A DNA stretch of 64,000 bases from Neckera pumila (taxonomy: Eukaryota; Streptophyta; Bryopsida; Hypnales; Neckeraceae): NCBI GenBank assembly GCA_963969595.1, contig OZ018412.1, positions 15,936,501 through 16,000,500 of the forward strand, read 5' to 3'. The notes below the pieces were generated by a model. It ran no database searches. It was given only the letters and a program-made list of their open reading frames with translations, and had not been told where the DNA came from. Both the position numbers and the translations under genes were made by a program. Shown here in pieces: positions 9,465 to 53,974 of this stretch. How positions within the stretch are numbered: the stretch's first letter is position 1; each line of letters begins with the position of its first letter.

Positions 9465-9474
9465 AGTTTTTCCT
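9465..9474. repeat. Left 10-bp target-site duplication of the giant MULE
   Basis: AGTTTTTCCT lies immediately outside the left terminal inverted repeat and is repeated exactly at 27661-27670, immediately outside the right one. Mutator-like elements typically make duplications of about 8-11 bp, so the length fits. Confidence 0.85.
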
Positions 9475-9930
9475 GGGGAATGCTGGCATGTGAGCATGGA
9501 GCGGTGAGCGGGAAGCGGGGATTGGTGAGCAGGGAGTGTCTAAAATGTGGAAGAAAAATAAAAAGAGAAAAATTGATGAAAAAATGGATGGAAGTTGATG
9601 GAAATGTGGGCAATTTTTGCTAGAATAAAATCTAGAAATTGGGCTGAAGAAATAAAGAAAAGTGGATGGAGGAGTAGGATGAAAGTATGGGAAAAAAATT
9701 GTTGAAAATGGATGGCGGAAATGGATGAAAGTCGTGGGAATAATGGATGAATGTGTTTTGTAAAATGGATGGAAGTCATTCAAAAAATGGATGAATGTAT
9801 GCTTAAAAATGGATGGAAGTCATTCAAGAAATGGATGAAATTTGCTTGAGCGGTTTTGATGAAAGTAGGTGAAAATGGGCATAACTGAATGAAAAGAGGG
9901 AGGACATGAAAGAGGAAGGATTCCCCCCAA
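9475..9930 (+). repeat. Left terminal inverted repeat of the giant MULE
   Basis: The outer 60 bp are GC-rich with repeated GTGAGC and AGCGGGGA words. The inner part is an array of ATGGATGGAAGT/ATGGATGAAAGT words. The same two-part structure occurs inverted at 27300-27660. The right copy has 7 extra bases (CGAGCAA) in the GC-rich part. Identity is high in the outer block and falls inside the ATGGATGAAA array. Confidence 0.8.
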
Positions 9931-11916
9931 AAATATTAAATAGCAACTTTTCTTCAAAGCCCGTTTACAAGGAGTTAATTTGCTTGTATGACCGTGGAGA
10001 GTTCCTACAACCGTGCATTTAGGAATTAGGACACATATTCCAATTCACAATCAATTTTGACACTGCAACTTGTAAGGACAAAACATGAGATGGGTGATGT
10101 TTTGGTGCTACAAGAAGAGATTTTGGCCATGGCATAAGAGAATCATCTGAGTACTACTTCATCCATAAGAGGGTGAGACAAGCAAACAAAATTGAACTGA
10201 AATAATATATTGAGAACATTGAAATTTGTAAGAAACTGGATGTGCATTGTTAATGTAGCCTGAAATAAAGCTAACAATTTGAAGAATTCGGTTTTGGAAT
10301 ATGGTCATCTTTTGCGGTTTGTGCATCAATGTTGTGCTTAGTACAATGACAATGAAAGCCTGACGGTAAGGCTGTTACACCTCCAGTTTCTGTCATAGTG
10401 ATTTAATGAAATTTTTGCAAAACTATGGCGTTCAATCTTAAAGAATCATTATTCGCTGCATTATCATATATGCCCACTAGCTCACCATCTTCTTGACATT
10501 CATCGTGCATCCCCTGCAGCAGACGACAAACTCATCCACTAAAACCAAAAACTTAATGAATTCCATGTTCAATGGACCAGAATCTCACAAGCACTTGTTC
10601 TGGTGGGCAAGAGAGCAAACAATTCACAAATTCAGAATTATTAATCGAGGAGTTTGTAGTCTGGCTGAAGAAAATGCACGATGAATGTCAGTAAGGTGTT
10701 GAGCGGGTTGGATAATGATTGTAGTACTCATGAGGAGAAAAAACAACTAAGCAGAGATGATATTGAACATTGCAGATGAGTAGAAGAGACAGTCACTAAA
10801 ACCAATGTAAAATGAACTCTCCGAGAGTGCTATCAACTAGAGGCACTAAAATTACTATACCAACATCAACAATACGTCAGTAGAAGTGGGATTTTGAAGC
10901 AAAATCCCCACTATGAGATATCTAAGACCCAAGCACTACAACACAAATATTGTGACAACTACATATATGCTATAACTCATAAGGGCGTCGAAGATAGCGT
11001 CATCCTTTGAAACCGACAGGAATGCCCGACATGTGGCATGGAGTGATAAGGTTGTCATAGATCGCCTAATCCTCTTGAAAAGCTACAACAATAGGACACG
11101 CGACATAAAATTCTTAGAAAGATGCACCACGTGGCATCATATCCTAAGAATGAGATGTCACTTGGCATCCAAGATAGGCTCCCCTCTTCAGAAGCCACTT
11201 CCAAGACGATATGTAGTAATACAAATTGGAAATCCATATCCAAGACAACATTATCAGTATTTGGTGCATGTTGAAGAGAGAATTGGCGTAAAATAAGAAG
11301 ACTCGGCTACAACTAAAGAGGCACCTAAAACCGTCAAAATAAGGAATTCAGCATAGGCATTGGGGTTTAGGGTCGTAAAAATAAGGAATTCAACGTTGGT
11401 GGGGGAACTCTTCTTTCAAATAGTATTTGTTTACGTATTAGTGAATGAAACTCATGAATATTAAGAAAATAAATAAAAGATTAGGTGGTACTATGTAATG
11501 TCTAGGATTCAAATGCGATTATACAGTTGGAATATAAAAATGTTAGGGCACATTAATGAATGCTTATGGATAGATTTGGGAAGAATATATGGTGTACTCC
11601 ATGTAACAAGCACAGGGAGAAAATGGTGATATACTCTAAATCAAAAGGAAAATCATATTATTATAAATTGGCTCGTGAAAATCAAAGAACATGAAAGGAA
11701 GCTCATGCGGAAGCAATACTATTATGAGGAAGGTACATAAACATTCAGATACAAAGCATGTCGAAGGAAAAAATCCATTACTGAGATTGCATCATCCAAG
11801 TCAAGAATACAAATAATTCAAATACAAAAAACATAATTTAGCATCTGCATGGCAATCACAAAAATGTATTGAAAACAGTCATAGTAAAGCATGGTAATAC
11901 TACAAAGACATTGGGT
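9931..11916. other. Element-internal spacer, no gene recognised
   Basis: This lies between the left terminal repeat and the stop codon of the ParB-methyltransferase gene. An 87-codon plus-strand frame at 11033-11296 contains several CATGTGGCAT/CACGTGGCAT words but no recognisable domain. The stretch near 11880-11916 just past the stop is probably 3' untranslated sequence. Confidence 0.5.
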
Positions 11917-14900
11917 TCATGACGAACTATCCTCACTGTCTGCTGTCGTCGAGTCTGAATCTATAGCACAATCATCTACATACTTCAGAACGTGAGGATG
12001 TACCAAACCTGCTCTAGGAGCTGGTCTAGGGTTTAAGGCAACTAAATCCCTAGCCACTGCGTCTGCGTATACAGGGAGCTGAAATGATTTTGGTGGGCTT
12101 GGGAAAAATCCAGCTCTAGCAAAAAATGGAACGTATGTGACTTTGGTCACTTCTTGGATTTGCCTACACACCAATTAATCACATATTAGATCACATGAAT
12201 TTCATGTTTGTTGTGTACCATCAAAAGAAGATCTTAAATGAAAACTTACTTACTGAATCGGTTGGTCTTCACAATACGTTGGATTGGTACTTCTTCTTCA
12301 TCCAAATCTTCAACTGCAACTTCAGGGATTGATGGTTCAAGACACGGAACTATTGATGCACGCATGATCGGAGAAATGAGGGCATCAAATATAGCTTTGT
12401 CTTCCTCAAAGGCTAAAATATGACGACGAGCAGCACGGCAAGCTTGAATGCTTGAACCTGAAAATATACAAAACAAACAAAGAAAACGCTGCATAAGATA
12501 CATGACCAAGTTCAAGCATGTAATCTAACATCGTGGAAATAGTAAAATGGCAAGCACACAATACCTGTAGATGCTGTGCAGTCCACCACAACGTCTCCTG
12601 GTTCAGTGAGCCCTTCCACAAGCATCTGCATGAACTCTCGAGCCTTCTCTCGGGGACCACGCCATGGTTTTGGCCCATTCATGCTCACGTCTTCCTTATT
12701 GTAGAAGTTCTGCAAAATGTCATCTCGGCCCACCGTGACACCCACCGCTTGATGGGATGCGACAAATTGGAAAGGAAATTCCAAATCGGTCTTAGGTCCA
12801 CATTCCTTGACCACAAGAGCAATGGTGAAGTGCATAGTCTGCAATACAAATGAGTTAACACTGTCACTATAGTGTAGGTGATAATTAAATGGAGACTTAA
12901 ATGGGGGTAGAGTGCTTGTTACCGTCTTTGTTGGATTTGCCGGCTTTGTCAAATGGAGATGATTCATGCCAGTCCAAGTGATAAGGAGTCTGAATTTGTA
13001 TTCGGCGCAACATCCAAGGAGGTGGCTTTTGTGCTGTCAAGATTGGAAGGGATACATCACCAGCAGGGGCGCGCCGTCATGAAGGTACTCTTCAGCAAAG
13101 TCAAACACGGGCTGCAGGTACTCAGTGGGATTGAAGTCATTCCACTCCGGAATTGGTTCTGGTGGAGCCGAAATCGAAGGCACATGGAGTCCTTCGGGAA
13201 CATCTACAATGATGAGGTCCACGGCTGACTTCGCGATCATTTTCCCTTTGAAAGATCGGTCCTTATCACAGGCATGCTGTATGAGACAACAAAATGAAAT
13301 AAAATTTGATTAAAGAAATTATACAGTTATTGACTGAGAACATGTGTGATGTCATAAACCAGTAATTCATATATATGGAGGCCAGATCAATAGAATTTCT
13401 TACCATTTCCAAGAAGGCCTCCACATCAGCCATGGCTTTAGAATTATTGGGCAAATTACCCAAGGACAAATTGAGGATGCATTCATCAATGTCAGCCACG
13501 GGTGCCAAGTTCATCAATGTAGGTGTAAGCCCATGTACTAAGCGCTCCTGAGTGAGTGAGAAACCTGAAGATGTGTCCTTCATGTCCGCTGCACTTGTCT
13601 GAGGTTCATGAATAGGGATCTCAGCCTTCCTCTTTGTGCCCTTCTTCTTGGCCTTTTCCTCCTCCTTCTCAGCTTTAGATGCCATCCGTTTTTTCTTGGT
13701 TTCTTCTGTTTTCTTCTTCGCATCCTCCCATCTCCCCTCCTTTTTCTTGTCGGCTGCCCCCCTTCGCGCAACAGCCTTAGCTCTAGCCTCTGGATCTAGT
13801 CCAGCGAACTCGTCAAACTCTGGCTCTTTGGGTGCGGCGGATTGAAGTGTGTTGAAGAGAGTCTCTTCCTCTGGTGGCGTGGTTCCAAAAACACACTCGA
13901 GGTACCATGGGCATGCCTGCAAATGCGGTGTGGTCCAATTCTTAATCTGTGAGGCAGAGAACATGCAATCTGGGGAGGTCCTATCTAACCATGTAGTCAG
14001 AAATGGGGGTAGGTCCGTCTTTTGGATGGCTTTCTTTGCGTACAACTCAAACTTGAAATACCTGCAATAAAAGAAAGTTCAAGAGTATTGTATCCAATCA
14101 GATTATAGGGGAAAAAATGAAATGTAGAAGCTCCACCAAGACTTGGGAATTTAATTAGCAGTCAAGACAAACTAGAAATGAACAAAATGGAGATGAAAGC
14201 ATCTTTCAGATCCCTAGAAATTGTCTTCTGGGCCCGAGAGGACCTGCATTAGGTGGCTGACGATCTGAAATTGGAAACAGGTCCTAAGATTCACGCCAAG
14301 AAATTGAGAGACAATGGACAAAGAACTGGCTAATCATGATCCTGGTTATCAAACACAAAGGGGAATGGGTATTCTCTTGAGGATCAGAAATTGATTCATA
14401 AAGGCCGACGTACCACTTCATGCAACCATGAAAAGTTCCAAAAAGAGCAAATTAAATCAACAGATGACCAATACAAACAACAGAAAATGAAATGAAGTTC
14501 AAAACCACTAAAGAATATGTACAATGCAAAGCATGGAAAAAGTCCTATGGTAAACAAACACTAGGACTATCAACTAGTGTTGATTGCAGTGAAATTAACA
14601 CACATTCCACAATACCTGTATATCAACCGCTTCACAGCCAACATGGCCCCCCTAAAGTCCTTGAATGACTCAGACTTCTTGAAGGAGTCCGATCCCTTAA
14701 AGCTACATGTGTACGCCATGTCCCACAGCTTCATTCTCCAACACTCAATGTATTCGTGAAGGTTTTGCGGCTCCGTTTGAACAGACATGTCGATTGGAAT
14801 GTTATCCGAATGGTTGATGCTATCAAACATCTCCGTGGCTGCCTCTTCCAGCTACAGGGAAAATTGGCATGCAAATGGTGGATGAAATGTTAGCTTGTAC

Positions 14901-16831
14901 TAGTCTACCAATACTAGGAGTGAAAGGCAAACGCAGCTATGTATGTAGAATGTAAACACATGAAGCTGGAATATATAGAATGTCATATTATAGTAATACG
15001 TACCTCGGCATACCAACATGCCTTTGCAAGGAATGTCAACAGTCTATCCTCGTTAACTGGACGAGGAGGAAACCGCCTGGCTTCCCGAGTCGGATTGGAG
15101 GAATTCATCCACTTCAGCCACTTAATCTTGTGTGCTGGACTGACATTGGATGTTGAAATCATATTCAACTTCTCCAGTGTCAACTCTGACACTGCAAAAA
15201 GGTTCCAGTGCCTCTCGATCTGTAGCAATGATACAAATATTGATGAGAGAACAATTTAGAAGGACAATTGAGTAATTGCAATGGTTGAATAGAACATGGT
15301 ACTCACTTCTTGTAGCCACTCGGGGCCTAGACTCGGGGCGGCCATTGACACAATTTTTGACAGTTTTTGATACAACAGTCTTGTCGAATCCTTGATAGAA
15401 GTCTTCATTGCATCGGCTACTCCTTCCTTTGTAACTTCGGCAGCAGGCGTATCTTCGTTATACTTTCGAACTGCTTGATCAGCAACTGCAGAAATTTCTT
15501 GCTGACATCCAAGATGTATCACGGAATTAGCTAAGAATAGATTCATTGATTAAATCATCAATTAAATTAAGATCATGAACTAATAAAGGCTAAGCAATAT
15601 ACCTTGAAGATGAAAGACGTGAAGACCTCAAGGGGCATAGTGTACCACTTGGTTCTTGTCGTTTGTAAGCAGGTTTTAACCTCTTCGGGGCTAAGAAGCT
15701 CTTTGAACTTGTCGATTTCCATAACACCGTATTTTTGAACTCGATAGAGGGTGTGCACCAGGTTTGTCTTGACGTGATAGTTCTCGGTGTGCTTGCCATA
15801 CACATATCATTCGAAATTGCATGAGCATTATCAAAGCACATGCTAGTGAGGACGGGATTCAATCATGAAATTAGGAACATATAGGAGAAGACAACAAATG
15901 GAATGTTGCAAAATCATACTTGTTTATGTCGTGCATGGCTTGCATTGCCACTCCAATCCGATTCCGCGTATCCAAAATGATGGAATCCACAGCAATATGC
16001 CAATCTGGTTCCGTTGAATGAAGCCGCTTGATATGATTCATCCAAGCTATACGTCTATGATTTCCATCGCAGACATATAGTTTGAAATCGACCAAGTGCT
16101 TTAGCGCAGGCTGGGACACCAAATACTTGTTGAACTCGTCATTTGCCGAATTCCAAATCGGTCCCCATTCAAGTTTCTCAGCATCGGAGAATACTCCAGT
16201 CCGTCCAGCCTCATCACAAATTGATACATAAAAGACACGAGCCCCCTCCTCATATCCTCGAGTGAACTGATTTTCTAGCATAGTGAGGTCACAGGTGAGT
16301 GTCGGACGAACAACTGGCATAGGCACCATCCTGCAAAGTGGAATTTTCATTCTAGAAAACTCGTTCGAAGTTAATCGTAGACCTTGGAGGATTGAAACAG
16401 TATCCAAGGTCTGGGTCCTCCGGATGTCGTCCTCCATGAAATCCTCGCGAATTCCGGGAAGTTGGTCTTCAGATATCTCGTCCATCTCCACATCAGTGCC
16501 ACCTTCCGATTGGAGTCCGGTAACATCCATTGCTGTCAGGGTTGTCCCAGGATGGTTTGCCATCGAACCGGTTTCCACAGTATTCTGTAAGAAGGCAAGA
16601 ATATGTAGAACAATTAGAACTGGAAAATCCTCTCTTCACAAACGTAGTTAGAGAACAAAAGTGACACCTGTATGTGAAACAAATGACGAATCCCACCAAA
16701 CATACCCTAAAAGGATGGACAGGGAGGTCTGTAGTAGCTATCGCCATGGCCCCGGATGGAGTATTGTTTTCAAGAACCTCCAGTGCACCTTGCGTTGGGG
16801 GATTATTTGTTTGCCTACTGACCCCATGTCC

Positions 16832-19800
16832 CTGATCAATATATCGACAAATTAGCCATCGGATAGAAATCCTGACAGGATAATCAAATACGATCTAAAG
16901 CATGACTATGAACTTGGTGATAAGATCCCTCCTGCAGTAACTGGTTCAAGGATAGCAATTACATATAATGCGAGTAAAGCAAATCAGCGAACAAGAAGAT
17001 GAAATCCGTTTTCAGAGTGACGGCTAGCCTCCATGAATATCAACATTTGGCAGTGTTAGGATTCCCTCTCCCGGCTTGCCAGAATTGGTGCCTCAGGCCT
17101 GAGAGACCTCATGGGGTCCGCGAGCCAAGCAACAAGATTGACCTATTCACACGCAGTATCACCCAAAAAGAGCCTGGTTTGCGTAATACTTCCACCATTA
17201 ATAAGAATCATTGTTCAAATGCAACAGCTCCCACATGGATATACTAACGGGAACCAACAGAGGTATTGACAATGTAACGCATCTTGTTCTGACCCTAGAA
17301 ATCGGTTGAGATTATTTTGAATAATTTGGTTTAGTGGCTGTAATCAGTCACTGTGATTTCTAGGTCGGACCCCTTAAATTAGAATATAGACCCTCTCTCG
17401 GGACCCGAAATTTGGTCTCTCGGGCCCGAGAGGACTCCGGGAGCTGCACGCTGTTGCATTAAAACATTCATGCGACCAGTATCACAGAAGTTCATCGGGG
17501 AGGATGACGACTGGAAGATCATTGACAATTTCGTTCATTAGATCACATAGACAAGAAGATCACCCTCTCCGATGCAACGGGAATTGGTCTCCTGGGCCCG
17601 AGAGGACTCTGGGATGTGTCACCTCATGCACCAATACTGCATCTCCATCGTCCATATTATTAAGGGCAATGGTAAATAATGAAATCGCATTCAACTGCTA
17701 ACATAATAACCCTCCGACAATCTCTTTGAAGAAAACAAAACGAAACGTAGATAATTAAGAATCTAATATTATATCATGCGGTTGGGGATTAGTATCACAT
17801 AAATCTAGATCACAAAGTGTGATTGTTCTGATGTATTAGCCAAGACCAGCACCAGAAATGATTCGGATGTTCTGGATACGAGTATGCAGTGACCCGAAAC
17901 GAACCCTCTCCCTCGGTCCGGGAATTGGTCTCTCGGATCTGAGAGACATGTGAATGCTGCATGCTATTGCAACGGAATCTATCCTCTCGACCATCCTACA
18001 CCAGAACCACGCCAAATCAAAAGTTCACATTCATTTGAAGTTTTGATCTAGGCAAGCATCGCTCTTTACAAGGCGAACCCTGGCTGCAATCAAACTCAAT
18101 TTTATCAATTGAAAAAGTATAGTCAAGATGACCTCAGGAAGAAGCACTAGAATTTTGCATCGCTAAAATAGTTAGCAAACCAAACCTACACTCTCCAAGG
18201 ACCCGAGAATCAGTCTCCTGGGCGAGATCAATACTGAATAATTCCTAAGACATTTGTCCAGTGTTCGTTATCACTAGGATCAAGTCAACAAAATGTGTTT
18301 ATTCACTCGTTTTTAGGATGTAGCAGCAGCAACAAATGGGTCGGCTGATTTACCCTCAAGTTCCAGAATTTCTGAAAGATAATCCTCTCCCGATGCCCGA
18401 GAATGGGTCTCTCGGGCCCGAGAGACATCTGGGACCTTGAAGCAGTTGCATCAAAATCAGTCCTCTCCAGCATCCGAGAAAAAAACTTCACCAAATCAGA
18501 AGATCACATTCATTTGGTATTCTGATCTAGACAAGCATATCACCGTACGAAGAAATCCATGACCGTATTCGAACTCAATTATATCAAACGAAATCATATA
18601 GTCAAGATGACCTCAGGAAGAAGCAGTGGAATTTCAATTCGTCGGAACAGTTAGCGAACCAATCTTACCCTCTCCCAGGACCCGAGAATTGGTCTCTCGG
18701 GCCCGAGAGACCTCTGGGACCATCAAGCAGTTGCATCAAAATAAGTCCTCTCCAGCATCCGAAAAAAAAACTTACCCAAATCAAATGTTCACATTCATTT
18801 AGTATTCTGATCTAGACAAGCAAATCACCGTACGAACAAAACCATGACCGACTTCAAACTCAATAATATCAAACGAAATCATATAGTCAAAATGACCTCA
18901 GGAAGAAGCAGTGGAAAATCAATTCATCGGAACAGTTGGCGAACCAATCTTACCCTCTCCCAGGACCCGAGAATTGGTCTCTCGGGCCCGAGAGACATCT
19001 GGGACCATTAAGCAGTTGTATAAATATAAGTCCTCTCCAGCATCCAACAAAAAAACTTTGCCAAATCAGAAGTTCACAGTCATTTAGTAATCTGATCTAG
19101 ACAAGCATATCACTGTACGAAAAAAACCATGACCGACTTCAAACTCAATAATATCAAACAAAATCATATAGTCAAAATGACCTCAGGAAGAAGTAGTGGA
19201 AATTCAATTTGTCGGAACAGTTAGCAAACGAATCCAACCCTCTCCCGGTGCCCGAGAATTGGTCTCTCGGGCCCGGGAGACCTCTGGGATCTCCATGCAG
19301 TTGCATAAAAATAAGTCCTCTCCAGAATCCCCAAAAAAACCATTGCCAAATCAAAAGTTCACATTCATTTAGTAATCTGATCTAGACAAGCATATCACCG
19401 TACGAAAAAAACCATGACCGAAATCAAACTCAATAATATCAAACGAAATCATATAGTCAAAATGACCTCAGGAAGAAGCAATGGAAATTCAATTCGTCGG
19501 AACAGTTAGCGATCCAATCATACCCTCTCCCAGGACCCGAGAATTGGTCTCTCGGGCCCGAGAGACATCTGGGACCATTAAGCAGTTGCATAAATATAAG
19601 TCCTCTCCAGCATCCAACAAAAAAACTTTGCCAAATCAGAAGTTCACAGTCATTTAGTAATCTGATCTAGACAAGCATATCATCGTACGAAAAAAACCAT
19701 GACCGAATACGAACTCAATAATATCAAACAAATTCATATAGTCAAGATGACCTTAGGAAGAAGCAGTGGAATTTCAGTTCGTCGGAACAATTAGCGAACG

Positions 19801-20787
19801 AATCCAACCCTCTCCCGGTGCCCGAGAATTGGTCTCTCGGGCCTGAGAGACATCTGGGACCATTAAGCAGTTGCATAAAAATAAGCCCTCTCCAGAATCC
19901 GAAAAAAAAACTTTGCCAAATCAATAGTTCACAGTCATTTAGTAATCTGATCTAGACAAGCATATCACCGTACGAAAAAAACCATGACCGACTTCAATCT
20001 CAATAATATCAAACGGAATCATATAGTCAAGATGACCTCAGGAAGAGGGAATGGAATTTCAATTTGTTGGAACAGTTAGCGAACGAATCCAACCCTCTCC
20101 CGGTGCCCGAGAATTGGTCTCTTGGGCCCGGGAGACCTCTGGGATCTCCATACAGTTGCATAAAAATCAGTCCTCTCCAGCATCCGAGAACAAAAAATCG
20201 CAAAATCGAGAGTTCACATTCATTTGATATTGTGATCTAGACAAGCATCTCTCTGCACGGAAGGAACCATGACCGCAATCAAACTCAATTGTATGAAAAC
20301 AGAACTTATAGTCAAGATGATCACTGGAAGAAGCACTGGAATTTTGCTTCGATGAAACAGTTAGCGGACCCAACCTACTCTCTCCTAGGACTCTGGAATT
20401 CGTCTCTCGGGCTCGTCAGGCCACTGGGCGCCACAACCTCAAGGACTCTTTACTCAGTCTACTGCATATCAGCGTTACTGCTGTGCATCCCCGAGAAGTC
20501 AAAAATGTGGAAGAGGTTTACACTCTCGATGCAACCCTTTCTGGCCCACCTGATTCGCAGCAATACCTAATAAACATTCAACATTTATAGACCTTGACAT
20601 CCACTCCTGACGCTGGTGCAGTTCCGGTCTGTGGCAATTGACACAACCCTGTTGAAGGCCGTGCGGCTGGGTTCATCAGGCGGCCAGGTTCGACCTAAAC
20701 CCAATACTTAAATGTGTGTGGCACAATCATTCCTGTGAGGCACGAACAGCAAAGCCTATCACATCCAAGTCCTGTGATCTTGCATAC
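16832..20787 (-). other. Large first intron of the ParB-methyltransferase gene
   Basis: Upstream, the ATG-started exon ends in a GTATGC donor with phase 0. Downstream, the next exon follows a GATCAG acceptor, also phase 0, so the two can be joined. The 3,956-bp interval contains the 285-bp palindrome array and its degenerate outliers. No intervening exon is convincing. Minus-strand frames of about 60 codons recur in some monomers, but they are copies of the repeat and I do not call them exons. Confidence 0.5.
17380..20425. repeat. 285-bp tandem array with a central GC palindrome
   Basis: Eight monomers have the same landmark (GGTCTCTCGG or a one-base variant) at 18406, 18691, 18976, 19261, 19546, 19831, 20116 and 20401, exactly 285 bp apart. 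Degenerate copies lie at 17414, 17586, 17927 and 18212; the last two are again 285 bp apart. Each core is the inverted repeat CTCTCGGGCCCGAGAG; in the 18691 copy it extends to a perfect 22-bp palindrome (18691-18712). The rest of each monomer is AT-rich with conserved words such as TCAAGATGACCTCAGGAAGA and TCTGATCTAGACAAGCA. Single GGGCCCGAGAG cores also occur in introns at 14230-14240 and 24876-24886. Confidence 0.9.
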
Positions 20788-20877
20788 CTCGGATACAATG
20801 TTCTCATTGTTTCGTGAAGGAGTCTCCGAAAGCACTTCCCCTTGTTGACCTCGCCGTGAACGCAGGTTCGCTGCCAT

Positions 20878-22503
20878 CTTCAAGCGCTAGAAAATCGCCC
20901 AATTCGCCGTAGCAGAATGCAGTGACCTCGCGGAAGACCTCGCACAAGCCTGCTCTCGACCTTCACCAAACCAAATCGCGAAATCGTGTAGCGGCAGAGG
21001 CGGCATGGTTCTCCTGAGCTCAGGGCCCCGTATTAGGGTTGGAGGTGTGAGTCATTCGTTGAACTGAGGCTCCGCATCATGGGCTGGCGGGCTGGGGCCG
21101 GTACCAGGCCTTTGGCGTGGGCTTGGGCTTGGGCCGGTACCAGGCCTTGGGCTTGGGCTTGGGCTTGGGCTTGGGCTCTGGCCGGTAGCAGGCCTTGGGC
21201 TCGGGCTTGGGCTTGGGCTCTGGCCGGTACCAGGCCTTTGGCATGGGCTTGGTCTGGAACCAGGCTTGTACTGGGCTGTTCATTCCGCGCTGTAATTTCC
21301 CTCGGGCCTGCTCTTCTCTGAGTCGTGATTCTCTAGATGACGCAGGAGGTTAAATGCTACATTCAGATTGAGACGCGCACTGTGAAATCACAGGAATGTT
21401 AACCCCCGAAAGAAGTACAACAATTTATTATTATTTTTGTATTAAAATTTTTTGAAATTTTGAATTTGTATTTGCAATCAAAGGCTCCATATGAGCTAGG
21501 TGAAGTTAACATCTAACCCTACACTTGGCTTAGAATAGGGGCACGATTATTCATTTATCCCCACTAATTTGTGCGCATTCACCCTGTGGGTCCCAGTTCG
21601 AATGCAGGATTTCAGTGCTTTCCTAAGTGACTCGATCCTTTCCCTCGTCCAATAAGTGATATCCTCTGGTTACAATAATGGACCACTACGAGACAGACCA
21701 CAATCCTAATCCGAGGATGGTATGTGGCATGCAATGTTCATATAGATTTAAATCTAGCGTTCAACTGCTTCTGATTATGATTTACATGAAATTTATATGT
21801 GGGATTTATAACTTAATTATTGAGGATCATTTGCATGATCTAAGATCAATATTATGGGGCAAATCAAGAACGTTATGATAAGATCCATGTCCTTGTCATT
21901 AATTTCTGGCGTACAAAACCACATCTACGGGGTGGTGGCAGGGTACAGCGGTATGCAACCACGGAAGGTAACTATGTGTCCCGTTCCCCAGAATTTTGTA
22001 TCCCCTTTGCCCTGTATATTGCAGGCAAGTAGTGGTATGCATTTAATGGTTAAGTATACCCGGACACTAACATACTTTAAATTATTATGCTAGGATTCGT
22101 GGCGGCTTCAAGCAAGGTCTATATTTGTAGTTTTGATTTATATTATCCGTTGTACTAACTACACATCAAAAATGATGTTTGTCACTAAACGGTAATCTTG
22201 TTCTTATATTGCTATTATCAGTGAACAATCTAGTTCTCTTTGGTCCTTCCTATATTCTTGTACTCCTCGCTATTTGATGTGCATCAACCTCTTGTTGATA
22301 TGTTGAATGTCTTAGGTGTGTAGATCAGAATGCCTGGTACCGCTTTGTAGTGCTGTTTGCACTTGATCCCATTTCTTATTACAGGCTCAGGCTATGAGCA
22401 TTATATGTTGTGTCTAACGATCCGATGCTATGATGTTCTCTCTTGTGGTAGCATAGATAATTAGTATTCAATTTCGCAATATTGGTAGTCCAGTTCCATA
22501 GAG
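20878..22503. promoter_or_regulatory. Central divergent intergenic region of the MULE
   Basis: This 1.6-kb region separates the start codons of the two divergent genes, so it should hold both promoters. The first 200 bp next to the methyltransferase start are GC-rich. A GGGCTT/GGGCTTG low-complexity array (about 21085-21265) follows. The remainder up to 22503 is AT-rich without clear signals. The long Trp-Ala and Pro-Lys frames across the array are translations of the simple repeat, not genes. Confidence 0.45.
21085..21265. repeat. GGGCTTG-type simple-sequence array
   Basis: Runs of GGGCTT units are interrupted by repeated GGCCGGTACCAGGCC blocks (near 21096, 21133, 21179 and 21220), giving a higher-order pattern of about 40-50 bp. 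It is G-rich on the plus strand and lies between the two divergent element genes. Confidence 0.75.
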
Positions 22504-25500
22504 ATGCCAGACTTCCAGGGTATGGTAGTCGTCAGGGCCAATGGTGAAGGAGTCCCCTTGATTTTCGAGGTAGGACAAGATGGATTGGCAAGTGTATCCG
22601 CTTTTAGATTGAGTCTTCGTTTTCAGTTTTCAGCGAACTCGATTCACGTTGACGAAGATATCTTTGATCCCATCTCAGGAGAGCTTACGCATACTATAGG
22701 TGAAGTACCAGTACGGATTGGAGACAACACCTCCTGGCAATTGAAGCCAGGGAATTATAGAGCATACGGGATTCCAATTTCAGGGCTTCAACCTTCTACG
22801 GACGTAGTAACACCTTATCAGTCCTCTTCGTCCTCGTTTATAACTCCGCCTCCAATTGAAGTCAAGATGGAACCTCGAGTAGACAATGTCACAGTCCTAA
22901 GTTCTGACTCAGACATGACTTCTCCTCCTCCACCATTGAACTCGGGGACTCCTTCTTCAAAGACGACTTATCGTAATCATTCTACGGTGAAGGTCGCCGC
23001 GGATGTGATATTTGGTGATGGATCTATAACATCTGTCATTGATTGCTTGAGAGGATTAAGGACCCTCAAGGGATGTAGGAATGTGTTGTCAAAAATTGAC
23101 TATGACAAGATTAGCATTCAGAGAGTAACCACCCTCCCTCCTACTTTTAATGGAGACATCATTTTTGAGCTGCCAGCATTAGAGAGTGGTTCCGCTTCCT
23201 CTTATGCCAAGCAAATGATTGGGATGGATAAGAGATACGACGGTCATGTTTGGTCTAAGACAATCACAACAAACATCACTAATCCTATGGGGTTGTCATT
23301 TCGCACTTCCGCTTGTATAGGGCACCTTAGATGCACAAACCAGAATTGTGAGTTCCTAAGTCGTGTTCACCGAACTATGACCATCAATGAGTTGGAATGG
23401 GAAGGTCTATGTCCCATGACGCTTGATCCTACAGGGTCGCATCCTCCTGGGTCAACTTTGGTTTGTAAAATTTGTAAGGAGCCTCCAACTTGTATTCAGA
23501 ATTGTCCTGTCAAAGTATACTACGTCGTTGGCAACTACAAGACGACCCGTGCATTTGTACACTTGGGCATTCACGAGCATCCCGTCAAGGAGGGAGAATT
23601 GAGAGACATGAAAGACATTACCCGATCCCTAATTGGCCAGCAGATGGAGAAGACACCAATTGCGACAAATTCGTCCATTGTACTTGAAGCTACGAAGGAA
23701 CTACTTGGCGACCTTCTCTTGCGTCCGGATGGGGTGGTGCCAAAGACCATGGACTTTGCTGAACTACTTCCGGTTTTAGACAAGTGCAAGTACTTCAGCT
23801 CTCCAAGTATTCGAAACGAGGTAACTTCTTTTAAATATTTGAGGAGATTTGGAGTGATAAATAGTATTACACAGTTGAGGGGAGCCAGTACTTGGGCATT
23901 TGTTCAAGAGAGCAAATTTCCAGGACAGGGAACCGATGATGATAAAGTTTTTGTCTTCAAGATGGCCGAAGTAGGTCCGGGAAGTGGAGTGGACTTAGTG
24001 AAGCGCATGCAAGTGGGAGGTGACCTAGAGGATGCGTGGATCATGTTTGATCATGTGAAACGTGTTAAAGGCTGGACTACAATGGCCTGCCATGTCTATG
24101 ACTCTTCATATTGTCGGGTTATGACAATTGCGATTTGCGACATGCAATCAGAGGATTGCGCAGCCCAGATTTTGTTTTGGAGGAATCTGAACTCTGTTCT
24201 TGAACGACACGGGGTACCGCATACTCAGTTCAAAGGATTTATGGCTGATAGTGCTCAGGCAAACTGGAATGCTGTCAGGACTATTTATGGATTGGGGGAC
24301 ATTGCCGTTCCAATGGAAAACAGGGAGCGAACATGCTTCTTTCATTGGACTCAATCCATGGAAAAGCACACCAGAGCTGAAATCCGTGGGGACCTTCAAG
24401 ATCAGCATCGACTGCTCTGCAAACAATATAAAAATGTTGTTTCGTCGGAGGAATCAGAAACCCGTTATTTGGCAATCCGGGCTTGGTGGCTCACATCTGG
24501 TGCTACAACTGAAGAAGGCTTGCATCGACTGGAGTTGTGGCTATCATTCTGGCATTTTCGATATCGGCAGTGGGGTGGCTTCATGCAACTTGTAAGTATC
24601 TATTCCAAATGATTATCGTGTGGGTAATGTATAAGCGTCTGCCTGTCTATCCGTCTTCCTTATAATTATATGTTCTTGAATATTTGAAGTATAAATGAGT
24701 ATCCTCATGACTATTGTTGTACAATATTTTGGCTCAAGGAGTGTCATATGGCTAGAAGCGTATGCTATAGATGTTTCCGTGTCAAATCTTCCAAAAAAAA
24801 TTTCATAGGTCTTCTCTCTTATTGATCATTATCAGATGAAGCTATGCATGGTTAGGCACCTCACAAGTGTCTTTTGGGCCCGAGAGGCATTTCTCCGAGG
24901 CTACTTTATGGAATTTATTCTCTTGACATCATGGGAATGTGGTAGATTGCACTATGACATTGGGAGCCCTATGCATAACGTATAGCGCTAACAATACAAC
25001 AACAAATGGACTTGTTGTTTCTCTTCTTCTAGAATCCACGGCTGGATTGCTTTGGATTGCTCATTGTTAATCCAAGTTTATCATAGTAAATTACCAATCG
25101 TTTGATTTGTACGCATCCACAGCACTTGATAGCATCATATTTTTTTCTTTCTTTCTGTAAATCAAGGTAATTGTTCAATCTTTCTACAGAATTTGAGCGA
25201 ATCCGAATTGGCAGAAATGCCATCGTGTAACCTTGCGGAGACAGTGCACAATAAGTGGCTTCAACAGTCTGGAAAACGGGGTAACGATTTGTACATAGCC
25301 ACTGTTGACGACTTTGTAAGAGCTTTTATGCAAATGGTTAGGTACCACCAGTACCTTAAAGGCAACGTACCTGGGACAGGCCCCGGCAAGGAAGAGTTGT
25401 TACTCCGAGTTGCTCAACGTTCGGCTGGGCGGACCGGAAACCCTAAAGTGCTCGCTCAAGCTATATCAAGCATTCCAGGGGTTGAAGAATTTGTTAGAAG

Positions 25501-26659
25501 GGAGCCCCATCTGGAAGGTGAAGAAGTGTTTGGATCCCAGAAGAGGAAGGCAGACATGCCATTGGGATGCGAGCACGATTCACATAGACCTGATAAGGTG
25601 AATTTCTCGTATGCTTGCATCCAAACCAGATCCTATAGAGCCTCTTCAAGTGTTTCTCAGTTGAACACAATTACTGAAGACTTGTTGACAACAGAAGATG
25701 CAATCTTGGCGGAGGCGATGGAAACCGAAGATAATTGTGGACAACAGAGTACGCATCTATTCTCTCATGCAACAGTAATTCAGGAGAGTGACTGCGACGA
25801 AATGCACTGGCACATAGCAAGGCTACCCAAAACATCAGCGAAGGCTTGCTTTGCTCTGCAAGCAATATCTAAGAAGAAGTGCACTGCAAAGATTGTACAG
25901 AACAATATTGCTACAGCAGCTCTAACATATACTGGTATGATGGAGAATTACAAGAAGAATCGGAATGACAGGATGCAGTTCTTCTTTTGCAATGATGACA
26001 TTCAACGCTGCGTGAAGGGTACAAAACGGAAATGGGTGTTGTCCCGTCCACTTGTTCCTTCCATTTGGCCAGTGAAGAGGGGCACTGCATTGTCAAAAGC
26101 TGAAATTCTAGCATTTGAAGCTGCTGGTTTTCAACTCCCACAGCGTGAAGTCAATTCACCACGAAGACTATTTGGCGGCGAAGCAGGTATAGATTTAGTT
26201 TCTTCTTATCCTATTCCTTCATCAGCAGATGACCATCCTAAAATCCGAGGAGGGAAATTGATTTGACGTAATATGAAGGCCCCCTCCACCAAACAAGCAA
26301 ACAATTGTGCTTCTGCCATGACCTTAACTGCACGCATTACCCGTGTGACCATGGTGCCTCACCCGGGTTTTGGGTGCATAGTTTGTCTCAGTTCTGGAGC
26401 AGAGACAAGGAATCAGGAATATATGATTACGATTTCATCGTTCCCGAGCTGCAGTTGCCCTTACTTCAACGAAATGACAATGAAAGCTTTGGGGAGGCGA
26501 GGACAATGGGCAAATTGCAAGCATTTATATTTTGTTTTCACAGTCATTTGCAACCTGCAGTGTGTAGATGATGTCTTCATTCATTCTCCGAGTTTTAGTT
26601 TTAATGAAGTGAAGCGAGTACTTCTGAGTGGGATACTGAATCATTTAGATTTGAACTAG
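22504..26659 (+). CDS. MULE-type transposase with SWIM zinc finger (one in-frame TGA)
   Basis: This is the transposase expected to cut and insert the surrounding element in the nucleus. Exon 1 is 22504-24591 (696 codons, ATG start, donor GTAAGT). The second exon starts at 25190 after a TTTCTACAG acceptor and stays in phase. Residues about 277-359 form a Cys/His cluster (C277, C282, C321, C324, HEH 357-359) like the WRKY-GCM1/FLYWCH fingers of MULE transposases. The catalytic region includes D516 (WIMFDHV), D582 (GFMADSAQANW) and CFFHW at 611-615. A SWIM finger (CSC...CKH, residues about 1117-1141) lies at the C-terminus. A TGA at 26264-26266 interrupts the frame just before the SWIM part; the frame continues unchanged to a TAG at 26657. 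The TGA could come from a CGA codon by CpG decay. Truncated there, the protein would lose the SWIM finger. The acidic Ser/Pro-rich stretch at 100-150 is a linker. The N-terminal 90 residues are unrecognised. Confidence 0.8.
24592..25189 (+). other. Transposase intron
   Basis: A 598-bp intron with donor GTAAGT and acceptor TTTCTACAG, phase 0 on both sides. It contains one GGGCCCGAGAG core (24876-24886), identical to the centre of the 285-bp monomers in the sister gene's intron, which ties the two halves of the element together. Confidence 0.7.
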
Positions 26660-27299
26660 GTGTTGGTTCTCCAATGAGCCAGCTCTTCATGTGATCTATT
26701 TTATTCATCAATGAAGTAGTAGTGAGACTAAAAGGGCCACTACTACCATTATTATTTTCCATTCCTAAGAGGACAAGATGCTTTGTCTTCCCCAAATTTT
26801 TATATACCTGCTTCTACTATATAGGCTGTGCCATTTATGTCATGATGTGTTAAAACTTTCTATTTCTGAATCCTGTAGCCCCAGATAATTTCATGCTTAA
26901 TCATATCCTTTAAACATAAATATGATTGCCTAAGAGGTGGATCTTGTAATGAAAAGGGAAGGTAGAAATCAACGTGAAAATGACTATATCAGCACAAGCA
27001 CGCTAGAAGGTATCATTTAGAGTAGCAATATTTTGTCCCTGAACCCATTCCCCCTGACTCTTAATGATCTAGGGGCATCCCTAAACATCTATCATAGGCT
27101 TTATATTGATGAAGTCACCCAATCAGAAAGTATGTTTAAATTAGATTCTTTGTTTCCTTGGACATTTACACATGATGTCGCAGATTTTAAATTTAATCCA
27201 GCATCATCAAGCTTTTCCATTCCATTATATTATAGATTTCTTGCATCTACACCCTAAACCTCATTTGCCATCCAACTTTTCATGCACGGTCATTGAAAT
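26660..27299. other. Element-internal 3' spacer
   Basis: Between the transposase stop and the right terminal repeat. It is AT-rich with no gene; it presumably includes the transposase 3' untranslated region and polyadenylation site. An AATAAA-like signal is not obvious. Confidence 0.45.
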
Positions 27300-27660
27300 T
27301 TTCCACAATGAATCATTCATTGTTATCAACTTTCATCCACATTGAGTGTCCTTTTCATCCATTTTTCCATCCACTTTGATCTACTTTCATCGTCCTTTTC
27401 ATCCATTGTTTTCATCCACTTTCATCCCACTTCATCGCCATTTTCATCCAATTCTTTTCATCTACTTTCATCCATTTTTGCCATCAGTAGTCATCCAATA
27501 TCCTTAAATTATCATTCACCCTAACCCTACATTTAATCAAAATTTTCACTTTATTTCATCGAAGTTTTCTTTTTTCAAACCCCAATCACTGCTCCCCGCT
27601 CACCAATCCCCGCTTCTTGCTCGCCGCTCACTGCTCCAAGCTCACGCGCTAGCAACGCTC
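27300..27660 (-). repeat. Right terminal inverted repeat of the giant MULE
   Basis: An inverted copy of the left terminus. ACTTTCATCC/CTTTTCATCC words fill 27330-27500, followed by the GC-rich block CTCACCAATCCCCGCTTCTTG and GCTCACTGCTCC near the outer end. The outermost bases complement to GAGCGTTGCTAGC. It ends exactly at the right AGTTTTTCCT duplication. Confidence 0.8.
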
Positions 27661-27670
27661 AGTTTTTCCT
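27661..27670. repeat. Right 10-bp target-site duplication of the giant MULE
   Basis: An exact repeat of AGTTTTTCCT at 9465-9474, directly abutting the right terminal inverted repeat. Confidence 0.85.
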
Positions 27671-52234: not shown

Positions 52235-53185
52235 CTAATTACGCCGTGGACGATCCTCATCGCTGCTTGATGGGGAAGGCGCCTCTCGTCGCCCCTTTGA
52301 TTTCTTCGAATGGCTCTTGCTCTTCTTCCGATCATCCTCACCACTACTCTCACTGTCAGCATCGCTCTCCGGGACTTTTGTTTTCATCGAACGACTTGTT
52401 CCCTTCTTCTTCCGGCCATCGTCGCTACTCTCACTGTCATCATCGCTCTCCGAGTCGACCTTTCTTTTCCTCGATCGACCCGTGCCCCTCTTCTTTCGAA
52501 CATCAGCATCACTACTATCACTATCACTCTCATTCCTTTTCCTTGACCGACCGTCTCGTCTCCTCCGCCGATCATAATCACTGCTCTCGCTCGAGATATC
52601 GCTCTCGTCACTGCTGCTGGAGTCAGAGGAATCACTATCGCTGTCACTCTCACTCTCACTGCTGCTCTCCTTCGGCTTCCTCTTTCGCTTCTTGCGCAAA
52701 TCTTTGCTCGCTTTCCGAGAGGTCGCTTCACGCATCACATCCCGCGCGTCCACCAAAAGTTCCTCCGGCTCCATGAGCTTGGGCCTCAGCTTAGGGTTTG
52801 CGAGCTGCTGCGTCCGCGTGGGACGCGAGATGTAAACCCGTTCGTTCTTGCACTCGTAAGTCCAATGCCCCATCTGAAAACACTTCTGGCACTGCTGGGA
52901 GCTCCCGAAAGCCGCCGCGCCTCCCAGCTTCGCATCCTTCCTCACGCCCAGCTTCACGGCCTTCTCAGTACTCATCAAATACATCTGCCGCTTCGCTTCC
53001 TTCCGCTCCTGCCATCGACTCGGACCCTCCTCCTTCTGCCCGTACGCGTTCACGTTCCGAGCAGCGGCGGCAGCGGCCCGCTCCGCCTGCGTTCGGCTCA
53101 AACCCTTCGCAGCCGTCAGAGCCGCGGCCTTGATCCTGTCCGCCGCAGCTGCAGCCGCATCCGTCTTCTCTTTCTTCGACGACAT
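52235..53185 (-). CDS. CCHC zinc-knuckle, Ser/Arg-rich protein (ZCCHC10-like)
   Basis: A single-exon, 316-residue nuclear protein, ATG at 53183-53185. Order: an Ala-rich basic N-terminus (1-45); a highly conserved plant stretch [20 protein letters not shown] and [13 protein letters not shown] (about 45-80); one zinc knuckle CX2CX4HX4C (C99, C102, H107, C112); [14 protein letters not shown]; then a long Ser/Asp/Glu/Lys/Arg-rich low-complexity tail (about 160-316) with [10 protein letters not shown] and RRRRRDG-type tracts. This matches the plant proteins related to animal ZCCHC10. The SR/SD tail suggests a role in RNA processing, but the precise function is not established. The many open frames on the other strand are shadows of the repetitive tail. 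No break is seen. Confidence 0.88.
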
Positions 53186-53974
53186 CGCTCAAGCTCGGGA
53201 AAGCTCAAAGCACTGAACCCCGCTGAAAATCACAATCCTATAATCGCCTCGTCGCAGCAGACAGGCAGAAGATGTGAACTCCAGTTTCTTTTCAGAATCT
53301 GCGAAAATCGCAAGCCTGTTTGTGTTCTCGAAACCGAACACTCCACAGCGGAGAGCACAAAATCAAGCACAAACAAGCACCATCGCATAGCCCCAAACCC
53401 TATTGGTGCACCCAAACCTCGGGTTCCATTAAGGGGAAAACACCCAAAACCGTCCGTCTTCCTATTCCTAACAAGCAGACCAAAAGTCTTTTTTTTTCAC
53501 TTTTTGAGAAAGTGCCAAGATGGCAATCACTTAAAATTTGGTGAAGCATTGTATTTCTACTTTCATCCATCTTTTGGACCAAATAACACTTTTCAATCAC
53601 ATACATGCATTTTTTCATCCACATTTTTAGAAAAAGTTTGGCAAAAAAAGATTACTTTCATCTGGCAAAAAAGTAGACATTTATTTTGATCTAGTGCAAT
53701 TTGACCCCACGCCCCAAAAGGGCTGGTAGACTTCTATTGAAAGTAAAAGTGTTCCTTAACACCTAGAGTCCCAAGGTCATTTTTTTGTCAAAAAACACTC
53801 AAAATTGCCATTTCAGTTGCGTTCACCCAAAAAAGCAGAAAAATTACATTTTTTAGAACCTAACCAAAGGCTCTTGTACTTCACTTGTCTGAAATCATGT
53901 GAAAAAAATTTCATCAAATCTAACCATACAGATTGTCATTCAAAGTCGGACAAAAAGTTTTTTCTCAAGTACAT

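Follow-up and report, generated by a model that had tools for sequence, protein, structure and literature searches.

Why should a transposon carry a gene that joins a ParB-like domain to a methyltransferase fold, and what in the element could such a protein act on? The question is posed by a 64-kb stretch of DNA from Neckera pumila (the window), in which a complete element of about 18 kb, at positions 9475–27660, holds a transposase gene on the plus strand and, divergent from it on the minus strand, a second gene for a ParB-methyltransferase protein. The element starts and stops exactly inside AGTTTTTCCT, which stands on both flanks (9465–9474 and 27661–27670), confirming the perfect 10-bp target-site duplication reported by the initial annotation. 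The inverted terminal repeats that it placed inside the duplication are also found: comparison of the two arms (left, 9475–9536, plus strand; right, 27592–27660, minus strand) gives a 45-nt arm pair at 87% identity and 63 aligned columns at 79%. Further inward they give way to a TGGATGAAA-type repeat in inverted arrays. Specifically, repeat analysis places a subterminal array of a AAATGGATGAAAGT-type repeat, with a step of about 22 bp, at 9560–9870 on the left, and the same repeat, inverted and with a 44–45-bp step, at 27320–27490 on the right.

The element is mobile. We searched the 339.5-Mb assembly (18 contigs) with 601 bases of each element end, which yielded 45 and 41 scored matches (one figure per end). 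Pairing of these ends gives at least 21 copies, 17,552 to 39,535 bp long and together 0.13% of the genome. This count excludes weak or irregular pairs of ends (at C9:1.09 Mb, C3:7.48 Mb and C2:5.44 Mb) and partnerless ends (for example C10:22.69 Mb and C4:21.99 Mb). Duplications of 10 bp flank all 21 paired copies (15 exact, five with one mismatch and one with two), whereas among 420 pairs of flanks drawn from different copies not one matches with two mismatches or fewer, and it is on this contrast that mobility rests. The element is best explained as a mobile, plant-type DNA transposon of low copy number, and the check proposed in the initial annotation, for copies at other sites with duplications of 9–11 bp, is passed. 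Two copies, C8:23588809–23628343 (39.5 kb) and C6:17644887–17680903 (36 kb), are about twice the usual size; they carry exact and one-mismatch duplications, and are probably nested insertions.

Both genes travel with the element. We fetched ten further copies, eight of them whole and two (C2a and C7a) with a gap of 1.0–1.3 kb in the middle. Both coding regions align in all ten, so that, with the window copy, both genes accompany the terminal repeats in 11 of 11 copies examined; terminal repeats that never occur together with both genes, one of the refuting conditions set by the initial annotation, are thereby not what the genome shows. The ParB exon is present in 20 of the 21 paired copies, the remaining one (C6c) being without such an exon among the best 150 of 460 candidate matches.

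The second gene (11917–16563, minus strand) comprises ten exons and 1073 codons, with the first ATG assumed as the start. Comparison of aligned copies, by which the splice sites of both genes were set, places exons 1–5 at 16563–15920, 15792–15603, 15501–15307, 15219–15004 and 14851–14616, and exons 6–10 at 14061–13404, 13276–12923, 12838–12565, 12457–12250 and 12163–11917. GT and AG are kept at the internal junctions in the aligned copies, except at exon 2 of the window copy and exon 6 of C6b. The N-terminal exon encodes a ParB/sulfiredoxin-fold domain (residues 69–214; 15922–16359, minus strand), for which a confident model, built from 69 sequences, contains the superfamily fold with a DGxHR-type active-site strand and helix; an AlphaFold model from the single sequence had a predicted local distance difference test (pLDDT) score of 33.9. 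The DGNH motif at residues 166–169 is invariant in all 69 aligned sequences. In copy C1a, whose frame is open, tyrosine replaces the first residue of this motif. The ParB of chromosome partition is a cytidine triphosphate (CTP) clamp with a helix-turn-helix domain that binds parS.

About 500 residues further on lies the methyltransferase domain (12250–13276, minus strand), which matches Pfam PF01555 with 28.5 bits against a cutoff of 26.7, over profile positions 30–218 of 221, and PHROG 3008 with an E value of 3.1e-07. Motif IV (DVPE) stands before motif I (DCTASTG), as in beta-class amino-methyltransferases. By domain profile the second protein belongs to the beta-class amino-methyltransferases of adenine N6 or cytosine N4 (N6A/N4C), a placement in a family that makes no claim of enzyme activity. 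The usual catalytic tetrapeptide of such enzymes is (D/N/S)PP(Y/F/W), a pattern that DVPE fails; motif IV reads DVPE in nine of 11 copies, DVLE in one and DVPK in one. On the whole, the divergent multi-exon gene described by the initial annotation, with a ParB motif and a permuted beta-class methyltransferase fold in a mobile two-gene element, stands.

Relatives of the ParB exon abound in the same genome. A search with the ParB exon found 120 homologs, and in the assembly at least 150 matches (the best 150 of 460 candidates, at least two rows being one split copy) have 40–100% identity, many without stops. C11 (at most about 13 Mb) carries 21 of these best 150. The whole spliced methyltransferase protein of the window gave no homolog at E ≤ 0.001, perhaps because gene calls break at introns. 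In phage records, tblastn with the methyltransferase domain turned up weak matches only (95 records; 22–25% identity among the 20 matches listed), and we therefore claim no donor lineage. In addition, a viral-contig scan with the ParB alignment returned no relative, and a PDB profile search with it returned only chance-level matches.

Is the second gene maintained? When two groups of six and three copies are compared, the second gene has a ratio of nonsynonymous to synonymous divergence (dN/dS) of 0.162, from a dN of 0.026 and a dS of 0.163, and the transposase one of 0.259, the pairwise ratios sharing copies and having no significance test behind them. The ParB and methyltransferase parts give 0.109 and 0.172, and the two ends of the protein are less constrained (0.382 over the first 110 codons and 0.530 over the last 113). 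Introns diverge by 10% and 9%. Comparison inside the larger group gives 0.39 and 0.38, as expected of recent, partly dead copies, and comparison with C3b, kept apart as a lineage of its own, gives 0.27 and 0.46. These analyses leave out copy C2a, because an insertion lengthens its exon 10 and its ParB exon falls outside the aligned piece. Both proteins are under purifying selection, and the ratio of 0.162 between copy groups indicates that the second gene is maintained together with the element; the word "cargo", which the initial annotation used for it, undersells a gene whose dN/dS is lower than that of the transposase. The region 3′ of the second gene (9975–11900), in which no gene was recognised, diverges by 3.7–10.6% per 200 bp between copy groups and is about as conserved as the gene itself.

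The transposase gene has two exons and 1185 codons. Residues were read by eye: exon 1 (22504–24591, plus strand) contains the candidate acidic residues D516 and D582, and exon 2 (25190–26659, plus strand) contains the glutamate of NLAETVH and a SWIM-like C-terminus, together giving a D-D-E/C-H pattern. The frame is open in copy C7a, and all aligned copies but C3a and C3b retain the splice dinucleotides. The initial annotation had called this protein a Mutator-like element (MULE) transposase with a SWIM finger. MULEs make target-site duplications of 8–11 bp, and a C-terminal SWIM zinc finger is common in their transposases, if not universal. The element fits that range, with 10 bp at all 21 copies, and has terminal inverted repeats. 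Neither the whole transposase protein nor a 20-sequence set (window exon 1 and 19 homologs) matches the Pfam MULE profiles. At the C-terminus, CxC...CxH is present in 11 of 11 copies, and the match to SWIM PF04434 is below the cutoff (E 0.12; 12.4 bits against 19.6). A PDB profile search with the transposase alignment gave only chance-level matches. The Mutator lineage is unproven, and the case for it consists of the duplication length, the terminal repeats and the D-D-E/C-H pattern.

Between the two genes, in the upstream region that they share, lies an array of palindromic sites (17064–20419), arranged from 18384 onwards in 285-bp units. Sites like CTCTCGGGCCCGAGAG with up to three mismatches occur 13 times in the window, against 0.05 expected, and all 13 are inside the element. 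Eleven lie between the genes, most of them in the 285-bp units; of the other two, one falls in intron 5 of the methyltransferase gene (14225–14240, three mismatches) and one in the transposase intron (24871–24886, two mismatches). At up to two mismatches the window copy has ten sites, and each of the other ten copies has 10 to 17. Across 159 distinct segments the core keeps 1.58–1.74 bits per position against 0.54–0.62 in the flanks, the core figure being inflated because the sites were picked by their core. The neighbouring CCCTCTC and GAATT, which were unused in picking the sites, are also kept while the rest of the unit decays. The exact 16-mer CTCTCGGGCCCGAGAG occurs 131 times in the genome and its reversed control not at all; among the 50 occurrences listed, 47 fall in the 21 copies and the other three adjoin a related ParB exon at C2:5.44 Mb. 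At this last locus (C2:5436562–5455440), the ParB exon (84%) and three exact palindromes lie between two oppositely oriented right-end-like matches, possibly an end exchange. A GC-rich tandem repeat of GGGCTTGGGCCGGTACCAGGCCTT type, distinct from the palindrome array, stands between the array and the transposase gene at 21089–21252.

Two more distant relatives, L064 (68% ParB identity) and L065 (45%), were read upstream of their ParB exons. They have tandem units of 170 bp and 149 bp, respectively, and the three arrays (those of the window element, L064 and L065) have no mutual blastn match at E ≤ 1e-3. The units of L064 and L065 nevertheless hold an imperfect palindrome of the TCGG-NN-CCGA type. 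Allowing one mismatch gives 10 sites in L064 and 6 in L065, where shuffled sequences average 0.79 and 0.59 and reach at most 4 and 5; the exact core occurs once in L064 and not at all in L065, and this likeness is a lead and no blind test, because the pattern was chosen after the arrays were seen. No transposase was found in the stretches read at L064 and L065, which may not extend to one.

Both genes of the window copy carry damage. The methyltransferase gene has AA in place of AG at its exon-2 acceptor (15793–15794, minus strand) and a premature TGA in place of CGA at codon 793 (13037–13039, minus strand), AG and CGA being what all ten other copies show; the transposase has a premature TGA at codon 1055 (26264–26266, plus strand) in common with copy C6a. 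Among the private changes of the copies C to T predominates, at 0.23–0.26 per CG, 0.20–0.21 per CHG and 0.067 per CHH, a bias that suggests the footprint expected of plant CG and CHG methylation. Both stops of the window copy are CGA-to-TGA changes in CG context, and the acceptor loss is a G-to-A change whose opposite strand is in CHG context. Neither this damage nor the palindrome array was noted in the initial annotation.

What, then, might the second protein do? We propose, with a probability of about one half, that the ParB-methyltransferase of the element binds the element's own TCGG-NN-CCGA array and marks or coats this region, keeping promoters open or labelling a substrate. In such a scheme, the protein would recognise the palindromes, which are its candidate bound sequence, and would mark or coat the upstream region common to both genes. 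The mark could keep both promoters open against host cytosine methylation; alternatively, it could label the element as a substrate. The logic would resemble that of VANC proteins, which act on motif arrays in VANDAL transposons, an anti-silencing system in which the second protein binds an array specific to its element and methylation is lost. A self-targeted epigenetic module is the simplest reading of an array shared by two genes, of silencing marks, and of two DNA-handling domains in the second protein, whose function we infer from these features.

The same array could serve a different partner. It may be a binding or promoter region of the transposase or of a host factor, with the ParB-methyltransferase serving transposition otherwise, for example as a nuclease or nucleoside triphosphatase (NTPase) accessory at DNA ends. 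We regard this as possible but on the unlikely side. The transposase, too, has the array upstream of it; with its atypical motif IV, the methyltransferase part may lack methylating activity; and PMC5512222 reports DNA nicking by a ParB domain fused to an adenine methylase. What such a role leaves unexplained is the presence of arrays of like core upstream of the ParB exon in three subfamilies, an objection that is weak because the transposase side of the two relatives lies outside the stretches read.

Might the array instead have no function? An ordinary transposon with a second gene and a fast-evolving, functionless satellite would account for the ease with which tandem arrays arise, for the rapid divergence of the array flanks and for the imperfect cores of L064 and L065. 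It would not account for the persistence of CCCTCTC and GAATT as the unit decays, for the single sites in introns of both genes, or for related elements having built different repeat units around a similar core, and we judge it improbable. Most improbable of all is capture of a host or bacterial gene that rides along as a passenger and does nothing for the element. MULEs are reported to capture genes often, and the window copy of the gene is broken; yet the dN/dS of 0.16 between copy groups contradicts a passenger, and on these data we reject that reading. The abundance of ParB matches in the genome (at least 150, at 40–100% identity, among the best 150 of 460), the invariant DGNH in 69 of 69 sequences, the ParB exon in 20 of 21 copies and the like proteins in algal transposons described in passages of PMC12477816 all speak against it as well.

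Is such an element new? The initial annotation knew of no described case, a claim that does not hold for the architecture. In its passages on the brown alga Ectocarpus, PMC12477816 describes Sola1-1_Ec32, a giant transposon of 21.5 kb that encodes, on the strand opposite the transposase, a protein of 1104 aa combining ParB-like and N4C/N6A methyltransferase domains; its authors suggest that the protein binds and modifies its own transposon, and they cite like proteins in green and red algal transposons. With these cases in print, neither the transposon ParB-methyltransferase architecture nor the idea of self-marking is new. By description, the Neckera element resembles Sola1-1_Ec32 in having one protein of about 1100 aa with ParB and N4C/N6A methyltransferase parts opposite the transposase. 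Sola1 target-site duplications are 4 bp long; those in 21 of 21 copies here are 10 bp, and by that measure the transposase is a different one. The passages of PMC12477816 on the Ectocarpus element mention no target array, and in contrast to that account the present case has CHG-type decay in the genome and an element-specific palindrome array. The present case adds an element whose duplications span 10 bp, the dN/dS evidence for selection, and a candidate target in the form of the palindrome arrays.

A two-gene MULE with an epigenetic gene is likewise not without precedent. VANDAL/Hiun elements of Arabidopsis, in the parts of PMC5735166 and PMC10398659 that treat them, are Mutator-like and carry a transposase and a separate anti-silencing gene, VANC; their motifs are short and element-specific, form tandem arrays in noncoding regions, in introns and upstream of the transposase, and turn over between families. 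The Neckera element is alike in pairing a transposase with an epigenetic-type gene and in having motif arrays upstream of the transposase and in introns. It differs in that its second protein has a ParB/sulfiredoxin (Srx) fold and an amino-methyltransferase domain, as VANC is not described in those parts, that its motif is a 16-bp palindrome, and that it has two genes, not three. Bacterial Bce_0392, as presented in part of PMC5512222, also joins a ParB-like domain to an adenine methylase, whereas here the domains of this kind are about 500 residues apart, in ten exons of a eukaryotic transposon, with DVPE as motif IV. Retrotransposons of dinoflagellates and charophytes likewise encode their own DNA methyltransferases, according to the abstract of PMC5890265; those are C5-cytosine enzymes, and the present domain is of the amino-methyltransferase family and lies in a DNA transposon. 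The N4CMT of bdelloid rotifers is another bacterial-type amino-methyltransferase in a eukaryotic genome, but it belongs to the host, contains SPPY and a chromodomain, and is connected with transposon silencing (PMC8885841, relevant passages), whereas the gene here is inside a transposon.

More speculatively, and with rather low confidence, a transposon family may have rebuilt bacterial-style self-marking. A ParB-fold protein would load on parS-like promoter palindromes, a fused amino-methyltransferase (making N6-methyladenine or N4-methylcytosine, or catalytically changed) would maintain element-specific chromatin, and protein and palindrome would co-diversify over at least 100 loci in one genome. 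The earlier guess that transposon ParB-methyltransferases mark their own element gains a testable object in the element-specific palindrome arrays; the genome around them shows methylation decay of plant type and holds numerous diverged ParB-exon copies. If the link between protein and array holds, transposons would have, besides VANC, another and unrelated means of countering host silencing, and eukaryotes a natural epigenetic effector with sequence specificity, and the subfamilies in one genome would allow a direct test of protein-motif coevolution.

Elsewhere in the window, an open frame at 52238–53188 (minus strand) encodes a CCHC zinc knuckle (PF13917, E 5.3e-21) and an Arg/Ser-rich tail, and is probably a host gene.
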